Below, piece by piece: positions 1,625-10,148 of a DNA stretch of 64,000 nucleotides. Within the stretch, counting starts at the first letter, position 1. The number at the start of each line of letters is the position of its first letter. The notes beneath the pieces were generated by a model that had not been told where the DNA came from, made no database searches, and saw nothing but the letters and a program-made list of their open reading frames with translations. This stretch comes from Alphaproteobacteria bacterium (lineage in GTDB: Bacteria > Pseudomonadota > Alphaproteobacteria > Puniceispirillales > Puniceispirillaceae): assembly GCA_016780775.1 (NCBI GenBank), contig JADHLI010000005.1, forward strand, positions 62,001-126,000, given 5' to 3'. A program made the position numbers and the translations under genes.

Positions 1625-1714
1625 GGAGAGGTGGCAGAGCGGTTGAATGCACCGGTCTTGAAAACCGGCATGGGTGAAAGCCCATCGTGGGTTCGAATCC
1701 CACCCTCTCCGCCA
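1625..1714 (+). tRNA. tRNA-Ser (anticodon TGA)
   Basis: The 7-bp acceptor stem GGAGAGG pairs with CCTCTCC at 1704-1710. The anticodon loop reads CTTGAAA, giving anticodon TGA. A long variable arm typical of serine tRNAs follows, then the T-loop GTTCGAATC. The discriminator G and an encoded CCA end at 1714. The last 14 bases of the gene are part of the 20-bp repeat that bounds the integrated element, so insertion preserved the tRNA. Confidence 0.96.
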
Positions 1715-1720
1715 TATTTT
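1701..1720 (+). repeat. attL, 20-bp direct repeat at tRNA-Ser 3' end
   Basis: The sequence CACCCTCTCCGCCATATTTT is identical to 9469-9488, and matching stops at both flanks. It covers the tRNA acceptor 3' strand, the CCA and six downstream bases. This is the usual core crossover site of tRNA-targeting tyrosine integrases. Confidence 0.93.
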
Positions 1721-1942: not shown

Positions 1943-1992
1943 GGCAAAGGTAACGGCCTCTGAGAGACTTATTTTAGTAATTGGAGGTAATT

Positions 1993-2367
1993 ATGCGTTT
2001 GTTATCACTTTTAGTAATTTCAACTTTTCTTGCAGGATGCTCATCGATAGTTAATGAGTCTCATCTGCCTATCAATCTTTCATTTAGTGATAATTCAGGG
2101 GGTGAATGCTCGCTTCGGAATAAACGTGAAAGTTACACCACTCAAATACCTGCATCTATATTAGTTAGGCGCTCAGATGACCCATTAGTATATGACTGCA
2201 CAACTACTGATGGCCGGAAAGCAAACGGCAGTATTAATAGTAATATTGGGCAAACGATGGCTGGCAATATTATTTTTGGCGGTGGTATAGGAGCCATCGT
2301 TGACGCAAATAATGATATGCACCGAGAATATCCAGACTCTTTCATCATTCCAGTAGTGAAGCAGTAA
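1993..2367 (+). CDS. Small lipoprotein, element cargo
   Basis: The 124-residue product has a lipoprotein signal, MRLLSLLVISTFLAGCSS, with the lipobox cysteine at residue 16. The ATG at 1993 is preferred over an upstream TTG because GGAGG sits 6 bases before it. The C-terminal third carries a glycine-rich segment, GNIIFGGGIGAIVDA, followed by a YPDSFIIPV tail. I recognise this ending from a widespread family of small bacterial lipoproteins of unknown function, often misannotated as translation initiation factors. It is followed 2 bases later by another exported-protein gene, so the two are probably co-transcribed. No enzymatic role can be assigned. Confidence 0.75.
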   Translation: MRLLSLLVISTFLAGCSSIVNESHLPINLSFSDNSGGECSLRNKRESYTTQIPASILVRRSDDPLVYDCTTTDGRKANGSINSNIGQTMAGNIIFGGGIGAIVDANNDMHREYPDSFIIPVVKQ

Positions 2368-2369
2368 CA

Positions 2370-2792
2370 ATGCCCTCTACCTTCAAAACACTCATCCTCG
2401 CCCTGCTAATCACTTTTTCTTTTTTGGCAGTTAGCAAGGTTGCTAATGCGGGAGATATTATAAACGCCGAATTTAAATGTATGCCCTATCAGGGGGGACA
2501 TATTAGAGGGTATAGCAACCTGACTGAAAATCCCTTCAGAATAATTGAACCAGATGAAATTATTGTAGTTGTAAAAGGCACTGATGTTAGGGTTAAACAC
2601 ATGTCGTTTTGGGAAACCCTTAGGCGTGATCATAGTGCCGCTTCTTGGGTGGCCGCATCATCTGACGATTTGTTTATGAAGCATGTACACATTAGGCTAA
2701 CACAAGATAGTGCTACTTTTAAATGGCAATTTCAGCTTGTAAGAAATGGTTCTATGCAAGTCTTTGCTTTTGGAACTTGCCAAAAAAAATAG
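2370..2792 (+). CDS. Secreted hypothetical protein, element cargo
   Basis: The product has 140 residues with a clear Sec signal peptide and likely cleavage after VANA (about residue 27). The mature part has cysteines near its start (EFKC) and end (GTCQKK) that could form a disulfide. I do not recognise a family. The gene starts 2 bases after the lipoprotein stop and ends just before a hairpin at 2794-2820, so the two genes form a short rightward unit at the left end of the element. Confidence 0.7.
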   Translation: MPSTFKTLILALLITFSFLAVSKVANAGDIINAEFKCMPYQGGHIRGYSNLTENPFRIIEPDEIIVVVKGTDVRVKHMSFWETLRRDHSAASWVAASSDDLFMKHVHIRLTQDSATFKWQFQLVRNGSMQVFAFGTCQKK

Positions 2793-2793
2793 C

Positions 2794-2820
2794 CCCCCAG
2801 CGGGATGAGACGCTGAGGGG
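2794..2820 (+). terminator. Hairpin after cargo pair
   Basis: CCCCCAGCG (2794-2802) pairs with CGCTG and GGGG (2811-2820) across an 8-base loop, with one bulged A. There is no clear T-run after it on the + strand. It separates the rightward cargo pair from the converging capsid gene. Confidence 0.4.
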
Positions 2821-2896: not shown

Positions 2897-4345
2897 TTAA
2901 GGTGTGAGTGTAACCTTATTAAATGCACCAGCATGAGCAACAGCCACATCAGTTAGCTGTGATGCAGTGATTTCAATTACACCATTTCTAGCAGATGAAT
3001 ACGGGTCGATAACCAGATCCATACCGCCAAACATCCCGATATACAGATGCCTAAACACGCCAAAGAATGCTGTTGCTGATGGGCAGTGAGCGCTTTCTAT
3101 TACACGCTTACCCGCCAATTGACCGTTTTCATATACAAACAAGCCAGAGCCACTATCTTTCGCTGTAGAGGCCAATGTAGCTGCGCTAGCAGGGTTGATA
3201 ATCCATACCCCGCCTGCTGTATCGATATTGTTGGAAGCAACTTCACCGATAATCTCATAGCTTTCTGCGTGTGTAATTGTAGAGCTGCCAGTGGTAGTGA
3301 ATGTTTCAATACCCGTAGCATTCTCAACACCAGTGGGATTAGCCCCTGTACCATCACCAGTAAGCGCTGCCTCATCAATAGCGTTAGTAATGCGGAATTG
3401 GAGGTTTTCCCGCACTAGCGCATCTACACGCGGATCAGCTGTTTCCAACACATGACGCGTAAATGATGCTGTGCCAGCACATAAACGCGGGGTCATAGTG
3501 ATGGTATCAATATCCAGATCTGTCTCTGTGATGGCTGAATTCTCTGCAATAAAGCTGGCAGATACATCGCTGTTTAGCTTCGGTATCGAGATTGTGCCTT
3601 GTGGTGCTTCAATCATAGTTGCGCCAGCTTCCATTACAGATGAAGCCTCACGCGGGATATCAATATAGCTCCCACTTAAATGCACAGAACCAATGCCGCC
3701 ACCAATATCACCAGTGCTGGTCATAACCGCACGCTGATAAACTGCCGATGATGGCACAACTAAGCCCTTTGCAGAGCCGATATAATGTCGCTTAGCCTCT
3801 TGGCACATTTCGCGCTCAAAGCCAGCTTCTGACCAATCGCCTTTCAATTCCGCTCTAATTGCATTTCCAAGGGAAAATGTGCGCTCTACTGCGCTTAACG
3901 GATTTGGAGTGGCGAGAGGTTCGGTAGATGAGATTTCCATATCATCATCCTTTCTCTTTATTTCTATAGGTTGAAGCGATAGTCCCACTGGCTGACCGGC
4001 CTTTGAGCCTTCACTGTATTTCAAGATTGTTGGTTGCAACTCACCACGCGCTACGTTTCGCATAGCTTGTTGCCCTTTAGCTGACCGGCTAAATCGTAAA
4101 TACCCGACATCGGTATCCTTATTCATAAACATCGCGCCCACTTGGTCGCGTGTATCATCCTCGTTAAACCACATAATCGGCAAAGAACCGTCCTCAGGGG
4201 CGCGTATCTTGCCCTCCAGTGCGAATGCTAGGCCTTCTGAGTCAGTTCCCTGAAAGTTAAAGGCTCGCGTACCTACGAGCGTTGAAAGCGGCTCACCAGA
4301 GTCCTTAATCGATAGGGGATTAACCATAGTGGTGCGGCTATCCAT
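2897..4345 (-). CDS. HK97-type major capsid protein with N-terminal protease-like domain
   Basis: The 482-residue product has two parts. From about residue 215 to the end it matches the HK97-fold phage capsid family, with the N-arm stretch GTISIPKLNSDVSASFI, a central EAALTGDGTGANPTG segment and the C-terminal PYSSARNGVIEI segment. Residues 40-130 resemble prohead protease (PIMWFNEDD, LRFSRSAKGQQAMRNVARGE, LQPIEI). The positions where the catalytic His (MFFNH in HK97-like proteases) and Ser (MSVGFS-like) would lie are Asn/Glu/Asp and Pro-Thr, so this part looks catalytically dead and may serve as a scaffold. The ATG at 4345 is chosen because AGGAG lies 7 bases upstream. The gene overlaps the preceding one by 8 bases. 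No other virion gene is nearby. Confidence 0.88.
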   Translation of the reverse strand: MDSRTTMVNPLSIKDSGEPLSTLVGTRAFNFQGTDSEGLAFALEGKIRAPEDGSLPIMWFNEDDTRDQVGAMFMNKDTDVGYLRFSRSAKGQQAMRNVARGELQPTILKYSEGSKAGQPVGLSLQPIEIKRKDDDMEISSTEPLATPNPLSAVERTFSLGNAIRAELKGDWSEAGFEREMCQEAKRHYIGSAKGLVVPSSAVYQRAVMTSTGDIGGGIGSVHLSGSYIDIPREASSVMEAGATMIEAPQGTISIPKLNSDVSASFIAENSAITETDLDIDTITMTPRLCAGTASFTRHVLETADPRVDALVRENLQFRITNAIDEAALTGDGTGANPTGVENATGIETFTTTGSSTITHAESYEIIGEVASNNIDTAGGVWIINPASAATLASTAKDSGSGLFVYENGQLAGKRVIESAHCPSATAFFGVFRHLYIGMFGGMDLVIDPYSSARNGVIEITASQLTDVAVAHAGAFNKVTLTP

Positions 4346-4763
4346 TATCTGCTCCTTCAAATATCTGTTTATGGTTAAGCGGGATAAATATCGCTCTACT
4401 TGCTTCCCGAATGCCGCCTGTCTTGCGCCAGCGCATCATTAGCGGGGCATCATCTTTTGAATAGCTAACCAAAACACCATAAATGCGCCTATCAGAGCCG
4501 CGTCCCCAATCCCACATTAATTCGCGGAAATCAGCTGCCACATCATTAAGAGTGGTAGCGATATGCAAATAAGAGAGCGTGGTTTGGTCAAATGCCTGCG
4601 TTAAAAGGCGCGCCGCATAGAGGCTATCCAACTCAGGGAAGGTTTCTTGCATCAGCAATAAGGCTTGCTCAAAAGACACCTGATTTTCAATCTCAGGATC
4701 TACCCAACGGCCTGATATTGGCCTGCCTTCATGCTTTGGTTTTATAGGAATTATATTTCTCAT
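4338..4763 (-). CDS. Unknown protein coupled to capsid gene
   Basis: This 141-residue soluble protein has no signal peptide and no family I recognise. It has a helical, acidic middle (FEQALLLMQETFPELDS) and a basic stretch near the end (RWRKTGGIREASR). Its stop overlaps the capsid start by 8 bases, implying translational coupling and a role tied to the capsid, such as assembly, scaffolding or size redirection. A small terminase subunit is possible but I see no motif for it. It starts just downstream of an inverted repeat at 4767-4788. Confidence 0.7.
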   Translation of the reverse strand: MRNIIPIKPKHEGRPISGRWVDPEIENQVSFEQALLLMQETFPELDSLYAARLLTQAFDQTTLSYLHIATTLNDVAADFRELMWDWGRGSDRRIYGVLVSYSKDDAPLMMRWRKTGGIREASRAIFIPLNHKQIFEGADNG

Positions 4764-4828: not shown

Positions 4829-4954
4829 AATACTAAATTAAACTAGTGTTTTTAATTCTGTCGCTAGCGATACTCTGCGGTCGCGCGTTACCCGTAAAAC
4901 AGGCTTGCCAAAAGTACCTTTTAGATGGTCAGATTAGTCTGTGGAGGAATGCAG

Positions 4955-5347
4955 ATGATTAGATTTTTGATAGCTGGTTTGATGGTACTAATGGTTAGTA
5001 ATGCTAATGCTGTGAAGAACGAAACCCATTTCAAATATTGTAAACAATATGTGGAGAATGGTTTTAAAACTACCGATATAGATACGCTGAAATGTTATGT
5101 TTATTTCACTGGGGTTTATGAAGTGCTCTACGATGCCTGTTATCAATATCAGCAAAGCTTGAGCAACTTGAACGATTCTCAAAAATCTATTTTTGAATAC
5201 CTTGCCGTAGGTAAGGCGCTTAGCTTGGATTCCGCAATTCAACATTATGTTGATAAAATGCAAAATGCACCCGAGGATTGGAATTACAGCGCTGGTGGCG
5301 ATGTTAGACGATCCCTCCAAGCTATGTATAAGTGCAAACCAGAATAG
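4955..5347 (+). CDS. Exported Rap1a/Tai-like protein, copy 1
   Basis: The 130-residue product has a signal peptide ending NANA (about residue 19). The mature part has four cysteines and the layout of Rap1a/Tai small helical proteins: CKQYVENGF, then YFTGVYEVLYDAC, then a C-terminal helix and terminal Cys (YKCKPE). Known Rap1a/Tai proteins include periplasmic immunity proteins against type VI amidase effectors. The assignment rests on pattern only. The ATG at 4955 has GGAGG 7 bases before it. The gene at 5381-5773 is a clear paralog of equal length with all four cysteines conserved, so this is a tandem duplication. Confidence 0.7.
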   Translation: MIRFLIAGLMVLMVSNANAVKNETHFKYCKQYVENGFKTTDIDTLKCYVYFTGVYEVLYDACYQYQQSLSNLNDSQKSIFEYLAVGKALSLDSAIQHYVDKMQNAPEDWNYSAGGDVRRSLQAMYKCKPE

Positions 5348-5380
5348 ATAACTATTTCACCAGATTGGTAGGTGTTCATT

Positions 5381-5773
5381 GTGATAAAATTATTGATAGC
5401 TGGATTGTTTGTGCTGATAGCTGAAAATGCAAATGCAGCATCTAACGAGTCCATTTATAAGGTATGTAAAAAATTTGCCAGTAGTGGTTTTGATGAATCA
5501 ACGACAGATGCGTTGGCTTGTACAATGTATTTTCTAGGCGTTCGAGACGCATATGACGGTGTGTGCAGCATTTATGAAGGTAGTTATGAAACTTTAAGTG
5601 AGAGTGAAAAATATGTTTTTGAATTTTTTGCACTTAAATCATCGGAAAACCTTCATGCAAGTATTCAAGATTACGTCAATAAAATGCAGCAAAAACCAGA
5701 GAATTGGGGGTATGGCGCTACATTTGATGTAGGTGACTCACTCCGCAAAATGTCACCCTGCAAGCCTAAATAG
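5381..5773 (+). CDS. Exported Rap1a/Tai-like protein, copy 2
   Basis: This is a 130-residue paralog of the upstream gene. It has a matching signal peptide ending NANA and four cysteines at equivalent places (VCKKF, LACTMY, GVCSIY, SPCKPK). Both share the motif DYVNKMQxxPENWxY or its close variant. A GTG start at 5381 follows a GGTAGGT ribosome site; an in-frame GTG 9 bases upstream would overlap that site. The spacing of 33 bases suggests one transcript. The family may be immunity-like, but no partner toxin is visible, so the role is open. Confidence 0.68.
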   Translation: MIKLLIAGLFVLIAENANAASNESIYKVCKKFASSGFDESTTDALACTMYFLGVRDAYDGVCSIYEGSYETLSESEKYVFEFFALKSSENLHASIQDYVNKMQQKPENWGYGATFDVGDSLRKMSPCKPK

Positions 5774-5853
5774 ATATCACATTCCCCCACTTAGAATTAG
5801 TTATCTGTAGACTGAGCTTGTAGGCACTGGCCCGTATTAAAATGGAGATAAAT

Positions 5854-6075
5854 ATGGAAAAAAAATTCGCTTTTGATTTGGGAAGGCACTACCACTTAAT
5901 GATGCTAACACTCGCGACCATTATGACAGTTTGCCTTGTGATACTTACTGTTAAAGCTTTCGAAAAACAAACTGGGCTTCAAAGTGTACGCATTTGTGAT
6001 TTCACAAGTTGTGCTAATGTTAGCTGGGGATCTCTGCAAATTTCTGGTGAAGTGGACGCCAGAGTTAGGGATTGA
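5854..6075 (+). CDS. Small membrane protein, element cargo
   Basis: The 73-residue product has one strong membrane segment (about residues 18-40, LMMLTLATIMTVCLVILTV) followed by a short polar tail with two cysteines (RICDFTSC). The ATG at 5854 is preferred because GGAG lies 7 bases upstream; an ATG 12 bases earlier would include that site. It converges on the winged-helix gene ending at 6113. I do not recognise a family. Confidence 0.6.
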   Translation: MEKKFAFDLGRHYHLMMLTLATIMTVCLVILTVKAFEKQTGLQSVRICDFTSCANVSWGSLQISGEVDARVRD

Positions 6076-6112: not shown

Positions 6113-6964
6113 TTAAAGTTTATCGGGAATGTTAGGAAACTTCATTCCTTCACCGCCTACGGCACGCCAAACCTCTGGCGTACGCTCCTTTGAGCCTATA
6201 AAGCGGCATAAGGTGTAGATAGCTTTTAGGTTAACTTCGCCAACTGGAGGCTTATGGTGTGTGCTGTAAATATCGACAGCCATATTCCACTGGGGGTCGG
6301 AAATTGCGGTGAGGCAGGCGAGCTCTTCATTAAACCAGCCAGATAATAGCTGGTAGGCTGAAAACCTAAAGTTCAGCTCTTTTCCTTTATGGCCTAGCAG
6401 CGGCTCTTCATATACGCCTACCTTATTAGCCTTTTCCAGCCAATTTTCTAAATTCAGTGCCCCTAACTTAAATTTAAAAAGATCTACAAACGCCTCGTTT
6501 TTTAGGATGTTATTTATTTGTATCTTAGGTGTATAGATTAACTTTTTTACACTAGGTGGGTGTAAAAACTTCTCCTCTGGGGTGAAGTCTTTACTCTCCG
6601 CTAGCGAAGTTGTTTCACTGGTGGGTGAATTGATTACACTAGCTTGAATGCCTTCATCAAAACACGCAAAATCATTCCCATCCTTTTCAGGGATATAACT
6701 TTTGATTTTGTCGATATTCACTTTGTAGAGATTTGAAGAATTGAAACGCTGATGTGAATAAAGAAGCCCTTTTTCAACAAGCATTTTTTTAGCCTCTATC
6801 ACTGTCTTTTTACTAAAACCCGATAAAGCAGCTAGCTTATTGTTTGAAGGCCACGCAATCTGGCCTTGTTCAGCATTAAGGTGGTCACAAATGATTATTA
6901 ACAGCAACTTTTCCTTAGGCTCTAGCCCTTCGGCTTTTACGGCATTTCTAAGAGCTTCAAACAT
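6113..6964 (-). CDS. Winged-helix protein, possible satellite replication protein
   Basis: The 283-residue product begins with a helix-turn-helix domain (about residues 15-85) of the HTH_36 type found in plasmid and phage replication proteins: WPSNNKLAALSGFSKKTVIEA, then a recognition-wing segment. The C-terminal half (LENWLEKANKVGVYEEPLL onward) is unfamiliar. It is the last gene of the integrase operon, and its ATG comes 2 bases after the second AlpA-like stop. The position suggests element replication or its control. No helicase or primase motif is seen. Confidence 0.65.
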   Translation of the reverse strand: MFEALRNAVKAEGLEPKEKLLLIIICDHLNAEQGQIAWPSNNKLAALSGFSKKTVIEAKKMLVEKGLLYSHQRFNSSNLYKVNIDKIKSYIPEKDGNDFACFDEGIQASVINSPTSETTSLAESKDFTPEEKFLHPPSVKKLIYTPKIQINNILKNEAFVDLFKFKLGALNLENWLEKANKVGVYEEPLLGHKGKELNFRFSAYQLLSGWFNEELACLTAISDPQWNMAVDIYSTHHKPPVGEVNLKAIYTLCRFIGSKERTPEVWRAVGGEGMKFPNIPDKL

Positions 6965-6966
6965 CA

Positions 6967-7152
6967 CTATTCCGCAAAACTATCGATATGGTCTTGCACC
7001 TCTGAAAGCATCCAGCGGGTAGTACCAACGATTTTATGTGCCTTAGGGAAATCAGGGTCTATTTTTGACCACCGCCAGATAGTGGGAACTGACACGCCAT
7101 ACATACGCGCCACTTCTTTTACTGTTACCCTGCGATCATATTCATCCATCAT
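6967..7152 (-). CDS. AlpA-like DNA-binding regulator/excisionase 2
   Basis: About 61 residues form an AlpA/MerR-type helix-turn-helix: VTVKEVARMYGVSVPTIWRW, then the sheet FPKAHKIVGTTRWMLSEVQ. AlpA proteins of satellites act as excisionase activators or directionality factors. ATGs at 7152 and 7149 are both possible and both overlap the upstream stop, so translation is probably coupled. It is flanked by another AlpA-like gene and the winged-helix gene. Confidence 0.8.
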   Translation of the reverse strand: MMDEYDRRVTVKEVARMYGVSVPTIWRWSKIDPDFPKAHKIVGTTRWMLSEVQDHIDSFAE

Positions 7153-7357
7153 TTTCAAATACCATTTTGGCAGTAAGCCACGCCTCAAGGTCTGCCTTTT
7201 TCCAAAGCACCTTGTGGTCAGACAGTCTTATGGGTTTGGGAAAATCTGGACGGTTTTTTACATCCGCGTGAAACTGGCTTTTTTCATAATGGATAAAGTA
7301 AGCAGTTTCAGTCGCATTTAAATATGGACGCGATAAATCATATTGTTTCTGAACCAT
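7142..7357 (-). CDS. AlpA-like DNA-binding regulator/excisionase 1
   Basis: This 71-residue protein has a degenerate AlpA-type fold: LNATETAYFIHYEKSQFHADV in the helix-turn-helix place, then DFPKPIRLSDHKVLWKKADLEAWL, the usual AlpA sheet and C-terminal helix. The ATG at 7357 has GGAGG 5 bases upstream. It overlaps the second AlpA-like gene. Two AlpA paralogs in tandem suggest separate roles, such as excision versus transcription control, but the sequence does not say which does what. Confidence 0.75.
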   Translation of the reverse strand: MVQKQYDLSRPYLNATETAYFIHYEKSQFHADVKNRPDFPKPIRLSDHKVLWKKADLEAWLTAKMVFENDG

Positions 7358-7422
7358 ACTGGCCTCCAAAGGTTTGCATTCCCCTTTTTCGGCTGTTTTA
7401 GGATGAAATAGTATGGAATTAC

Positions 7423-7749
7423 TTAGTCAGGTTTTTCCGCTGATTTTTCAATTACTTTACGGACTGCATCTGCGCTCAAACCCAATTCATCGCTGATCCT
7501 GTTATAAGAAGCTGTGATAGAAAGGCCATCTTCCAGATTAATTTCGTGAACTCTAACGATGTCTCTATCCCGCACCTTTTGATCATAGTCTGAGCGTTTA
7601 CCCGCACTCTTTAGGAGTATGGCGCAAATTTCTTCTTGTATTTGAGGATTGTTTCCAAAGTCAGCATATCGAACAGCATCAGCCAGCAAGCGTTTATCGC
7701 CTGTATCCTGATACTCTTTCCAAATTTGGCTAATCAACGTTTTTGGCAT
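7423..7749 (-). CDS. Unknown protein in integrase operon
   Basis: About 108 residues from the ATG at 7749; a TTG start at 7812 would lengthen it and overlap the preceding gene. The C-terminal half, ASYNRISDELGLSADAVRKVIEK, looks like a helix-turn-helix of the sigma-region-4 or transposase-like type. It is therefore probably a small DNA-binding protein. It lies between a small membrane protein gene and the AlpA pair, on the same strand. Confidence 0.6.
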   Translation of the reverse strand: MPKTLISQIWKEYQDTGDKRLLADAVRYADFGNNPQIQEEICAILLKSAGKRSDYDQKVRDRDIVRVHEINLEDGLSITASYNRISDELGLSADAVRKVIEKSAEKPD

Positions 7750-7756
7750 AGTCGCG

Positions 7757-7990
7757 TTAGGATTTATTAAGGTTAAAAGTATTACTTTGGATATCTTCGA
7801 GATTTTTTTCAATAATCTCCCATCGATTATTATCTACTTCAAAGTTGTTTGTTAATACGTATCTATTTTTAAAATTTATTAAATTTTGATTTATTGCAGT
7901 TAAAACTGTCCAAATTTTGTAAAAAAGAAATAGCAGTGGCAAACCTACTAAACAAATGCTCAACAAAATCAAACTTTCATAATCTGTCAT
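7757..7990 (-). CDS. Small membrane protein downstream of integrase
   Basis: The 77-residue product has an N-terminal membrane helix (SLILLSICLVGLPLLFLFY) and a polar tail that looks coiled (RWEIIEKNLEDIQSN). Its ATG directly abuts the integrase stop codon, so it is in the integrase transcript. Family unknown. The one-helix-plus-coil form resembles small phage or satellite interference proteins only in outline. Confidence 0.6.
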   Translation of the reverse strand: MTDYESLILLSICLVGLPLLFLFYKIWTVLTAINQNLINFKNRYVLTNNFEVDNNRWEIIEKNLEDIQSNTFNLNKS

Positions 7991-9310
7991 CTAAAGCTCC
8001 ATCACATAATTTTCCCACTTTTGCAGGATTTCTCTTCGCTCTGCCTCTACTGGCACTCTTTTATCTGCATCGATAGAATAAGCCTTTTCCAGCTGGTCTA
8101 ATGTGTGCTGTAAAATCAGCTTTTTTACTATGCCCTGTCTAGGACGCGCTACATCCTCAATCCATTGAGCAAGTGTGCCCCTAGCCCCGTGAGCATTCAA
8201 GGTCATTTCTGGATTGCTTAGAGGTTTGTAGCTACTGATGCATTTGGCGATTGTATTGTTCGATAGCGGCTTTGTGGGGTGTAGGGAGAGCGCATATTGG
8301 TTTGCCCCTGTAATTTCCCTCACCTCCTCCATCATAGCCATTAGGCGGCTTGGTATAGGGGTGGAATGAGCATCACCATTCTTAGTGTAGTGAACATCCC
8401 TGCCATCTTCTGGATTATAGAACCAACCCGGTGCGTTATATACCGCATTCTCAAAATCAATATATCCCCACTTGAGGAATCGAACTTCTTTTTGCCGCTT
8501 TCCAAGAATGAAAACTATAGCCGTTGCCAACTTAGTGATTTTGTTTGATGTACTTTCATTTTGTAACCAATTCCAGAAATGAGGCGCATCATTATAATCT
8601 AATGATCGGTAATGCTGGTCATCATTATTCTTTTGGCTCGGAAAATCTCTAGCTGTTGGCGTGGGGTTCACATCAACGAGCGTATTTGCCCTGTCATTTA
8701 GGGCTATACGGAAAATCTCGCGGATTATTCCTAGCAGCCGCCTAGCAGTCTCATTACCAGCCTTGTTGCCGCCTCTCTCGCCCTTACGCATCCACATAGG
8801 ATGAATAAGCCTACGAATATCCTCAAAAGTAACCTGATTGATTGGTTTAGCGCCTAATGCTGGAAATGCATAACTTTCTAGCTGCTGGATTTTCTGCCTT
8901 ATTGTTATCGGGTCTAACGATGAGGGTTTTATGTTGGTTTCCCACCACTCACGCGCATAACGCTCGAAACTAGGCGCTATCTTCTTAATGGTTTGCACCT
9001 CACCTGTCACAAACTGCTTTATGCGGTCAGGGTCGGTAGTGATGCCGCAAAGTGATTTCAAATGTTTGGCATCAGTGTGCGCTAAAAGATCGTAAATCGT
9101 TGGAGCTAAGCGGCGGGCATCTTTTGTAGAAAGGTCAGGATATTTTCCAATCCTACAATAAGCACGTTTACCAGCATTATGCCGCATTACCTCCCAATAT
9201 CCAGTTTTGGCTTTAGTGGTTTCTAGATATAGGTTTTGGTTATCACGATAACGCTTCTTGATGCCAAGATTGATAAATCTCTTTATTTCAACTTCCTTAA
9301 GGACTGGCAT
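7991..9310 (-). CDS. int: Tyrosine integrase (P4/DUF4102 type)
   Basis: The 439-residue integrase recombines the tRNA-Ser core site. Its N-terminal domain (about 5-95) is the arm-binding DUF4102-like domain (KKRYRDNQNLYLE, YCRIGKYPDLSTKDARRLA). A core-binding segment follows at about 100-200. The catalytic domain shows Arg in GKRQKEVRFLKWG, the H-x-x-R motif in NAHGARGT, a third His in LILQH, and the Tyr nucleophile in LEKAYS. Length and order are normal for tRNA-targeting island integrases. It starts 159 bases from attR, with the right-hand arm-site pair directly before the start codon. Confidence 0.95.
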   Translation of the reverse strand: MPVLKEVEIKRFINLGIKKRYRDNQNLYLETTKAKTGYWEVMRHNAGKRAYCRIGKYPDLSTKDARRLAPTIYDLLAHTDAKHLKSLCGITTDPDRIKQFVTGEVQTIKKIAPSFERYAREWWETNIKPSSLDPITIRQKIQQLESYAFPALGAKPINQVTFEDIRRLIHPMWMRKGERGGNKAGNETARRLLGIIREIFRIALNDRANTLVDVNPTPTARDFPSQKNNDDQHYRSLDYNDAPHFWNWLQNESTSNKITKLATAIVFILGKRQKEVRFLKWGYIDFENAVYNAPGWFYNPEDGRDVHYTKNGDAHSTPIPSRLMAMMEEVREITGANQYALSLHPTKPLSNNTIAKCISSYKPLSNPEMTLNAHGARGTLAQWIEDVARPRQGIVKKLILQHTLDQLEKAYSIDADKRVPVEAERREILQKWENYVMEL

Positions 9311-9468: not shown

Positions 9469-9488
9469 CACCCTCTCCGCCATATTTT
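9469..9488 (+). repeat. attR, 20-bp direct repeat
   Basis: This is an exact copy of 1701-1720, that is, of the tRNA-Ser 3' end with CCA and six following bases. Beyond 9488 the sequence is presumably the original chromosome downstream of the tRNA. Confidence 0.93.
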
Positions 9489-9530: not shown

Positions 9531-10148
9531 CTACTCCCCGCTAGCCGCTTTCAGGCGTTTATATAAAGCGATATTTGTAATCCATTCTGGATTGCCCTTC
9601 GCATAATCAAAGGGGGTTTTGCCCTTCCTATCTTTGATGCTAGCATCCGCCCCCGCATCCAACAGATGGTCAATCACATCAAATTGCTTGCCCTTCATCG
9701 CCCCATGAAGCGGGGTCTCGCCCCGGCCATCTTGGGTATTCACATTCGCCCCAGCCTTAGTCAGGATTTTTACTTTGGCGACATCCCATCCGGTTATCGC
9801 ATAATGCAAAGGGGTTGTTCCACCGGGAGCGCTTTTATTATACCCTGTTCTTGTTTCCAGATTAACGCCCTTATCCGCCAAATATTGGACAATTTCTGGG
9901 GTGCTTCTGTATGCCGCATAATGGAGAGGGGTATATCCAGCTATATCATCATATATATCTGCGCCTTTGGCGATTTCCGCCTTTACATCGGCTAGGGTAG
10001 GGTCTCTAAACCAAAAGCGGTCATCACAAAGTTTCATGCAATCTCCTGCGCTAGCCTGTTTGGTTGCTATACCCAAAGCCAGAAGAAGGGGAATTAGAAG
10101 CAGAAAATTTAGAATTGGGAAGGTCATTTTCATCTCGGTCACTTTCAT
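9531..10148 (-). CDS. Exported ankyrin-repeat protein
   Basis: The 205-residue product has a signal peptide ending near QASAG (about residue 35) and three to four ankyrin repeats (GYTPLHYAAYRSTPEIVQYL, GTTPLHYAITGWDVAKVKIL, GETPLHGAMKGKQFDVIDHL, GKTPFDYA). Ankyrin repeats mediate protein contacts; a periplasmic location is inferred. The start is supported by AAGGAG 7 bases upstream. It lies just outside attR and reads toward it. Upstream, 10149-10407 (259 bases) holds a short hairpin (AACCCT/AGGGTT, 10272-10287) and no gene. Confidence 0.85.
   Translation of the reverse strand: MKVTEMKMTFPILNFLLLIPLLLALGIATKQASAGDCMKLCDDRFWFRDPTLADVKAEIAKGADIYDDIAGYTPLHYAAYRSTPEIVQYLADKGVNLETRTGYNKSAPGGTTPLHYAITGWDVAKVKILTKAGANVNTQDGRGETPLHGAMKGKQFDVIDHLLDAGADASIKDRKGKTPFDYAKGNPEWITNIALYKRLKAASGE

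Follow-up and report, generated by a model that had tools for sequence, protein, structure and literature searches.

The system closest to the locus reported here is SaPIbov5, in which small T=4 shells are built from pentamers of the Ccm protein and hexamers from the helper phage. According to the available portions of the published account, Ccm has a shorter delta domain, yields no capsids when expressed without the helper, and lowers the helper titre 10^3- to 10^4-fold when expressed from a plasmid. Capsid homologues are also carried by two Gram-negative PICIs. For EcCICFT073 of E. coli with phage lambda, the accessible text reports that all packaged DNA was phage-sized and that deletion of the capsid homologue did not relieve interference (PMC6092414, PMC6893505), and for PmCI172 of Pasteurella it reports small heads, the cause of which was untested there (PMC6092414). 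The PICMI satellites of marine Vibrionaceae package concatemers in full-size heads, and the sections of that work available to us remark that marine satellites seem seldom to reduce capsid size (PMC10803314). Predicted capsid sizes place 8.14 kb at T~2.33 and the lower bound of T=3 at 8.1 kb, and the range of T=3 or smaller is called missing among tailed phages in the excerpts available (PMC7762592). In the literature covered, satellites described with one capsid homologue come from a few pathogens or their relatives.

We analysed a window of 64,000 nucleotides, the whole stretch of DNA under study, from an alphaproteobacterium of the family Puniceispirillaceae, and report an integrated element with a lone capsid gene. 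Our preferred reading, to which we give a probability of just under one half (about 0.48), is that this satellite capsid homologue works like Ccm and co-assembles with the shell of a helper phage.

The locus is a 7.8-kb phage satellite with a single recognised structural gene

The locus is an integrative phage satellite, with an integrase, perfect 20-bp att repeats enclosing 7.8 kb, a small size and no full structural set (Table 1), and its packaging by a helper is predicted. Only one structural gene was recognised among the 13 ORFs (Pfam was searched for 13 and PHROGs for 10). Apart from this capsid gene, the head and packaging set is represented in the element by nothing but weak terminase-small-subunit matches of one HTH protein, the regulator at 6967–7188 (phrog_4044, E = 8e-4; phrog_509, E = 0.003); these lie below its AlpA-type match and count against our preferred reading. 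The element is not a capsid-forming PICI (cf-PICI), which we define, partly from general knowledge, by possession of its own head and packaging gene set.

Table 1. Features of the element and its attachment sites, in window coordinates.
Feature	Position	Strand	Evidence or remark
tRNA-Ser (TGA), attachment target	1625..1714	+	ARAGORN; Rfam tRNA 62.9 bits
att repeat, left copy, 20 bp, tRNA-Ser 3' end	1701..1720		Perfect direct repeat with 9469–9488
128-aa lipoprotein-like gene	1981..2367	+	phrog_6823, function unknown, E = 6.6e-8
140-aa secreted-looking protein, no family	2370..2792	+	ORF
Terminator-like hairpin 3' of capsid gene	2793..2820	minus	10 pairs, 8 GC, T run
Capsid gene with putative degenerate N-terminal protease domain	2897..4345	minus	482 aa
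HK97-fold capsid part with N-arm (residues 154–482)	2900..3886	minus	PF05065; HK97 prohead I
Putative dead, shortened prohead-protease remnant (about residues 25–130)	3956..4273	minus	Collinear alignment with fused proteases; register unsure
141-aa orphan gene	4338..4763	minus	Overlaps capsid start by 8 bases
140-aa secreted protein, weak Rap1a-like	4925..5347	+	PF18602 E = 0.005, below cut-off
133-aa paralogue, weak Rap1a-like	5372..5773	+	PF18602 E = 7.7e-4 and HTH_6 E = 2e-4, both below cut-off
77-aa membrane-like protein	5842..6075	+	ORF only, no Pfam match
Replication-initiator-like protein (HTH_36)	6113..6967	minus	PF13730 E = 3e-15; phrog_270 E = 5.7e-13
AlpA/excisionase-like HTH regulator	6967..7188	minus	phrog_66 E = 7.2e-10
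Second AlpA-like protein	7142..7369	minus	PF05930 E = 6.7e-4, just below cut-off
129-aa protein, no family	7423..7812	minus	Pfam and PHROGs negative
77-aa membrane-like protein	7757..7990	minus	Pfam, PHROGs
Tyrosine integrase	7991..9310	minus	PF00589 E = 2.8e-8, PF22022 E = 6.3e-13; phrog_1 E = 2.9e-29
att repeat, right copy	9469..9488		Perfect 20-bp repeat

The orphan gene that overlaps the capsid start is probably co-transcribed with the capsid gene. Its product belongs to no Pfam or PHROGs family and has no phage match at E ≤ 1, and its best matches in the order reach E = 0.004. According to the available text, interference by SaPIbov5 also involves ORF10, whose number is next to that of ccm (ORF11). 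Terminator-like sites in the element are at chance level (8 found against 7.0 expected). The genes at 4925–5347 and 5372–5773 are tandem paralogues that share a DNA repeat and lie on the strand opposite to the capsid gene; below cut-off, these secreted proteins weakly resemble Rap1a immunity proteins. A secreted ankyrin-repeat protein (9531–10148) adjoins the right att site, outside the element.

By two models, portal (PF04860) and S78 protease, the host genome holds no helper phage: neither has a match at E ≤ 0.001 in the whole 2.2 Mb, while each matches 4 of the 14 genomes used as controls. Conservation of the left flank in five genomes of the same genus reaches the tRNA-Ser or extends into it, and past this point four have other DNA and one has a contig end; the right flank has no match in any of the five stretches, and an empty site was not seen. 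One of them, G006, carries a different integrase after the same tRNA-Ser (L181 2210–3654) and, by our reading, a small AlpA-like ORF as well. The tRNA-Ser (1625–1714 in the window, and its counterparts in the five genomes) thus looks like a landing site for elements. Relatives of the replication-initiator-like gene occur in 14 of the 136 genomes of the order, the window's own included, and none of the six stretches examined contains a relative of the window capsid. In two genomes of the family these relatives (L151 1829–2713 and L152 8111–9043) sit within about 0.5 kb of a tRNA-Glu, again with no capsid relative in the stretches read. Exact-short-peptide scans, which detect close relatives only, found none of the capsid, the 141-aa protein, the replication protein or the integrase in viral_contigs, and none of the capsid in genome_contigs.

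An HK97-fold capsid protein carries a putative protease remnant

A preliminary description had proposed, at 2897–4345, a capsid protein fused to a prohead-protease-like domain without catalytic residues. The coordinates are right for a gene on the minus strand; AAGGAG precedes its ATG at 4345, and an alternative 487-aa form starts at an upstream TTG. The capsid assignment holds. Residues 231–479 match PF05065 (Phage_capsid; E = 2.3e-32, 112.9 bits against a cut-off of 24.2), residues 231–482 take the HK97 fold in the full-length model (block pLDDT 67–94), and comparison of the model with HK97 prohead I gave Z = 19.5 (248 aligned, 3.8 Å). By both profile and fold, the window protein is an HK97-fold major capsid protein. 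Its match to phrog_617 joins residues 153–478 to profile positions 274–621 of 626, and the N-terminal half of that profile is therefore unrecognisable in it. The stretch ahead of the capsid part measures 154 aa, and in four relatives 290–363 aa from the preceding stop (273–339 from the first Met).

The proposed protease likeness of this stretch proved modest. Pfam gave no match at E ≤ 1 in the N-terminal part, S78 (PF04586) included. Against a fused-protease profile built from the proteases of 83 relatives, residues 1–150 scored 6.4 bits, a score equalled by 1 in 5,000 shuffles in a first run, by 1 in 10,000 in a second, and by none of 54 other window ORFs, the best of which reached 1.0 bit. 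With a narrower profile (six relatives and the second element described below) the score fell to 3.3 bits, which 33 of 10,000 shuffles equalled.

The absence of the catalytic residues is clearer. Histidine is missing from all of residues 1–186, so a His-Ser pair is impossible under any alignment, within the aligned segment or elsewhere in the domain. Which residues stand in their place, however, depends on the register, which is uncertain: full-length alignments and an unanchored HMM alignment place the Ser column at Ile107, versus Pro119 in 13 of 18 MAFFT runs on the domain alone (Ile107 in the other 5). The Pro-Thr named earlier as the substitute corresponds to residues 105–106, one or two positions off Ile107. 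The His column holds Asp or Asn depending on the alignment; it is Asp63 in 9 of the 18 domain-only runs, and in the other 9, which used the larger row set, it meets a gap or a residue far towards the N-terminus. The third catalytic position is Glu128 (in LQPIEIK) by pairwise and six-row alignments and Gly by an 84-row alignment.

In the full-length model, the N-terminal part forms strands at 57–62, 65–74, 80–85, 103–110 and 119–126 and a helix at 89–99 (block pLDDT 52–78). The strand-strand-strand-helix-strand order fits the protease by eye, but the model is not independent evidence, since its input alignment contained the proteases. The domain modelled alone reached a mean pLDDT of 56; a fold search with this low-confidence model returned no viral match at E ≤ 0.001, with named prohead proteases recurring among the top weak ones, and the PDB fold search gave a best Z of 4.0 and named no prohead protease among the 50 rows listed. 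Searched against PDB sequences, the fused-protease profile found only EntV (E = 0.45). Together, these results suggest a dead protease remnant with a putative protease fold; descent supports the remnant well and sequence modestly, with further support from its position ahead of a capsid of a fusion-rich family and from the matching strand and helix order in the model. On its sequence, the window protein is not a member of the prohead serine protease family (PF04586/S78, U35), because the defining residues are absent. The remnant may have taken over an internal assembly role.

Catalytic residues and linker in the fused relatives

A tblastn search with the window capsid returned 60 records from the phage collection, each below 60% identity and with less than 80% of the query covered, and nine from the plasmid collection; the best relatives are 34–38% identical. 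Phage relatives are mostly prohead-protease/capsid fusions. All five phage proteins examined combine a capsid domain with an S78 protease domain, the latter over cut-off in four and below it in RcCronus (E = 0.033), and window residues of about 25–130 align opposite the protease. The gene directly upstream of the fusion is an annotated portal in four of the five and an annotated capsid protein in ep3. Such fusions are common in the relative sets assembled here, and the available text already describes them in small actinophages (PMC5513430).

Two sets of relatives were compared at the catalytic positions. For the first, the best 80 of at least 568 relatives, from at least 600 stretches in viral_contigs, were pooled with genome, phage and plasmid loci into 108 relatives, of which 83 had at least 595 aa and a closed 5' end; catalytic His, Ser and Glu are intact in all 83. 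The second began from at least 120 stretches with a DWS.AGFERE-type pattern, of which 80 were taken and 78 gave an ORF; a closed start and a long N-terminus were found in 66, and 65 of these keep all three residues (among the matches listed). The odd one, L213, has no S78 profile match, and ahead of a capsid with the same N-arm motif its N-terminus reads like a ClpP-type protease instead. Among the 12 rows dropped, nine reach the fused-protease profile, seven of them with all three residues; L246 and L222, which have cut-off ends, show each catalytic residue at the columns still covered, and L193, L216 and L221 have no protease part. The idea that dead fusions are numerous, with the window copy just one among them, was not borne out in these two sets, in which no relative (among the matches listed) shares the loss. 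The earlier proposal, a capsid joined to a dead protease, is thus supported, with active fusions in most relatives and substitutions that these do not have in common with the window copy. For the further suggestion that such a protein might reduce capsid size or hinder the helper, Ccm of SaPIbov5 offers a precedent.

More than the active site has gone. The protease segment measures 101 aa in the window protein against 139–160 aa in relatives, and the linker between protease and capsid 22 aa against 91–155 aa. A delta or scaffold region would be expected within this linker, so that the most scaffold-like piece appears to be missing and a disarmed protease left. The delta-domain role suggested for the N-terminal part is weakened accordingly: the region in question is what was lost, and the remnant is modelled as strands and one helix, with no long helical scaffold.

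These losses could also be read as those of a protein whose main task is interference, one that would enter helper procapsids and poison their maturation for want of a working protease. The loss of both His and Ser, found in no relative of the two sets among the matches listed, would suit such a protein, as would the fall in helper titre caused by plasmid-borne Ccm. A pure poison, however, would not help the element to spread, the gene sits in an integrative element, and none of the ten element proteins tested has a match among the PADLOC models; we consider this explanation distinctly unlikely.

Portal genes accompany most relatives. A portal profile of our own, built from five seeds (that of ep3, annotated as a capsid protein, was taken as a portal by position), matched in 79 of the 108 relative loci, and 26 of the 29 loci without a match have at most 556 bases upstream. 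Of the remaining three loci, L081 looks like a run of tail genes from a phage; by eye, L099 and L101 contain a portal-like ORF and, being unfused, separate protease genes. In the second set, L187, L206, L233 and L258 lack a portal match with more upstream DNA present, on a cursory reading. The idea that many relatives are lone-capsid satellites was not borne out, most of the 108 loci having a portal match or short upstream DNA. Counting its own genome, relatives of the window capsid occur in 1 of 61 genomes of the family, 1 of 136 of the order and 13 of 385 of the class. Four of the 12 class matches outside the window match the fused-protease profile, and the surroundings of three of these four revealed one element and two loci with portal genes.

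The window protein is highly diverged. Its branch is very long (2.06–2.45 changes per site in the trees), and of the columns at least 90% conserved among the 83 relatives it retains 9 of the 41 that lie in the protease part and 42 of the 69 that lie in the capsid part, when the lowest retention by any of the 83 is 71% and 79%, respectively. With best relatives at 34–38% identity and no second copy known, decay becomes a serious rival: a captured phage capsid gene, found in its own genome alone among the 136 of the order, that is losing parts and serves no function. The capsid part is also less gene-like than the neighbouring genes in its GC content by codon position (0.54/0.51/0.37). The N-terminal part resembles other genes in this respect, however, and 482 codons have stayed open in spite of the low identity, with the ribosome site and the overlapping upstream gene in place and a capsid fold still modelled over residues 231–482. 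Taking both sides together, we consider mere decay distinctly unlikely.

A second element of similar size carries an intact fusion

A search of the class identified a second element of 8.3 kb (L169 8953–17317, G308 contig 24), bounded by perfect 51-bp repeats, one of them in a tRNA-Arg. Like the window element, it is about 8 kb long and integrated at a tRNA, encodes an integrase and a replication-type protein (DUF1376-type, below the Pfam cut-off), and has a single fused capsid gene with a short N-arm and the DWS.AGFERE motif; none of the eight proteins scanned matches a portal, terminase or tail protein. Unlike the window protein, its 588-aa capsid keeps the protease active-site residues and the linker, and matches phrog_617 at profile positions 23–624, N-terminal half included. 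The two capsids are 29% identical and have the stretch DWS.AGFEREM.QE in common. Their other genes are not clearly related, the best match being the window replication protein against the C-terminal part of the second integrase (E = 0.003). This integrase has 714 aa, with a long C-terminal extension that has no Pfam match. The second capsid gene is found in 1 of 18 genomes of its order, its own, and no further lone fused-capsid element was found in the surroundings of relatives that were read.

In a tree, the two elements' capsids pair at 95/89. Both branches are long, one row was lost and one badly cut in trimming (G154ph, G463ph), and the result changes when rows are omitted: without the window protein the second capsid pairs with L104, and the window capsid joined the long branch of L099 in a tree built before the second element was included. 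The pairing was therefore set aside as evidence. A short N-arm (20–21 aa against 25–27) is only a hint of kinship, being common to 8 of 107 rows (the window, the second element, L088, L089, L090, L091, L093 and the unfused L099).

An element of this kind might form its shell entirely from its own capsid subunits, which at 7.8 kb would mean a size of about T=3 or less, with the helper lending only portal, packaging motor, tails and maturation. With active site and linker retained, as in the second element, one gene could make and mature a shell, and the two genome lengths (7.8 and 8.3 kb) are close to the 8.14 kb of T~2.33 and the 8.1-kb lower bound of T=3 given in the available text (PMC7762592). 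Among the matches of the window model is the cf-PICI shell of EcCI2, at Z = 18.7 but with an rmsd of 9.7 Å. For the window element itself this seems unlikely, because the protease and most of the linker are gone from its copy and Ccm, in the portions of the account available, formed no capsids without its helper. The cf-PICIs, moreover, carry a larger head gene set. It is possible, though doubtful, that there exists an unrecognised kind of tRNA-integrated satellite of about 8 kb in which one fusion gene, the sole structural gene, makes and matures its own shell below T=4, as that of the second element might, and that the window copy has been converted from such a self-maturing protein into a protease-dead, linker-less parasite of the shells of a fusion-type helper.

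Discussion

Under our preferred reading, co-assembly with a helper's shell, the capsid gene would have come from a phage whose capsid protein is fused to its protease, an origin to which its family, its context and the missing catalytic residues point. Infection by a helper with a related fused capsid would lead the element to excise and replicate. Its capsid protein would then co-assemble with that of the helper, as Ccm does, into small shells that fit the short genome at the helper's cost, and the helper would supply portal, terminase motor, tail and active protease. With its linker gone and its protease dead, the window protein could not cut the shell and would bring a short, different internal extension, the part likeliest to change curvature or size. 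A dead protease need be no handicap in a mixed shell and might slow the maturation of helper shells. Two described satellites counsel caution about size: as the available texts have it, an island capsid homologue need not change it (EcCICFT073), and small satellites can fill full-size heads with concatemers (PICMI).

In the open-licence literature covered, apart from the original tycheposon and VEIME papers, we found no satellite with a protease-capsid fusion as its only structural gene, nor one with a disarmed protease. Proteins of the exact window kind, a protease-dead satellite fusion, number one. Two elements in different orders of one class nevertheless hint at a recurring solution, and with genomes of about 8 kb each, a shell matched to one genome length would lie near the range of T=3 or smaller. 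If the hosts are marine, as we suspect, the window element bears on the remark, made in the available part of that work, about size reduction in marine satellites (PMC10803314).

The phage fusions of the phrog_617 type (S-LBS1, vB_EcoM-ep3, CRP-811, RcCronus and Alexa) have the same domain order as the window protein and an aligned N-arm at 25–29% overall identity, but they are 619–816 aa long and keep His, Ser and Glu and a linker of at least 91 aa. Among satellites, the PICMI elements resemble the window element in their very small size, few genes, and AlpA and replication genes, and differ, as far as the available text goes, in concatemer packaging and in having no capsid remodelling genes. 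EcCICFT073 and PmCI172 are, like the window element, satellites with a capsid homologue; EcCICFT073 differs in its additional decoration gene and in its phage-sized packaging, according to the accessible portions of the reports. SaPIbov5 belongs to a different host group, and for the window element helper use and co-assembly are predicted. In the published portions at hand, the delta domain of Ccm is predicted to be helical and no protease remnant is reported for it, whereas the window protein derives from a protease-capsid fusion and for that reason bears a visible scar of its disarming. The two nevertheless agree in being capsid homologues on satellites in which no protease is identified and in an N-terminal extension shorter than those of the phage proteins, as far as the available account of Ccm describes them. 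As a satellite-borne capsid homologue with an N-terminal extension shortened relative to its relatives, the window protein resembles the Ccm type, and it probably works like Ccm.
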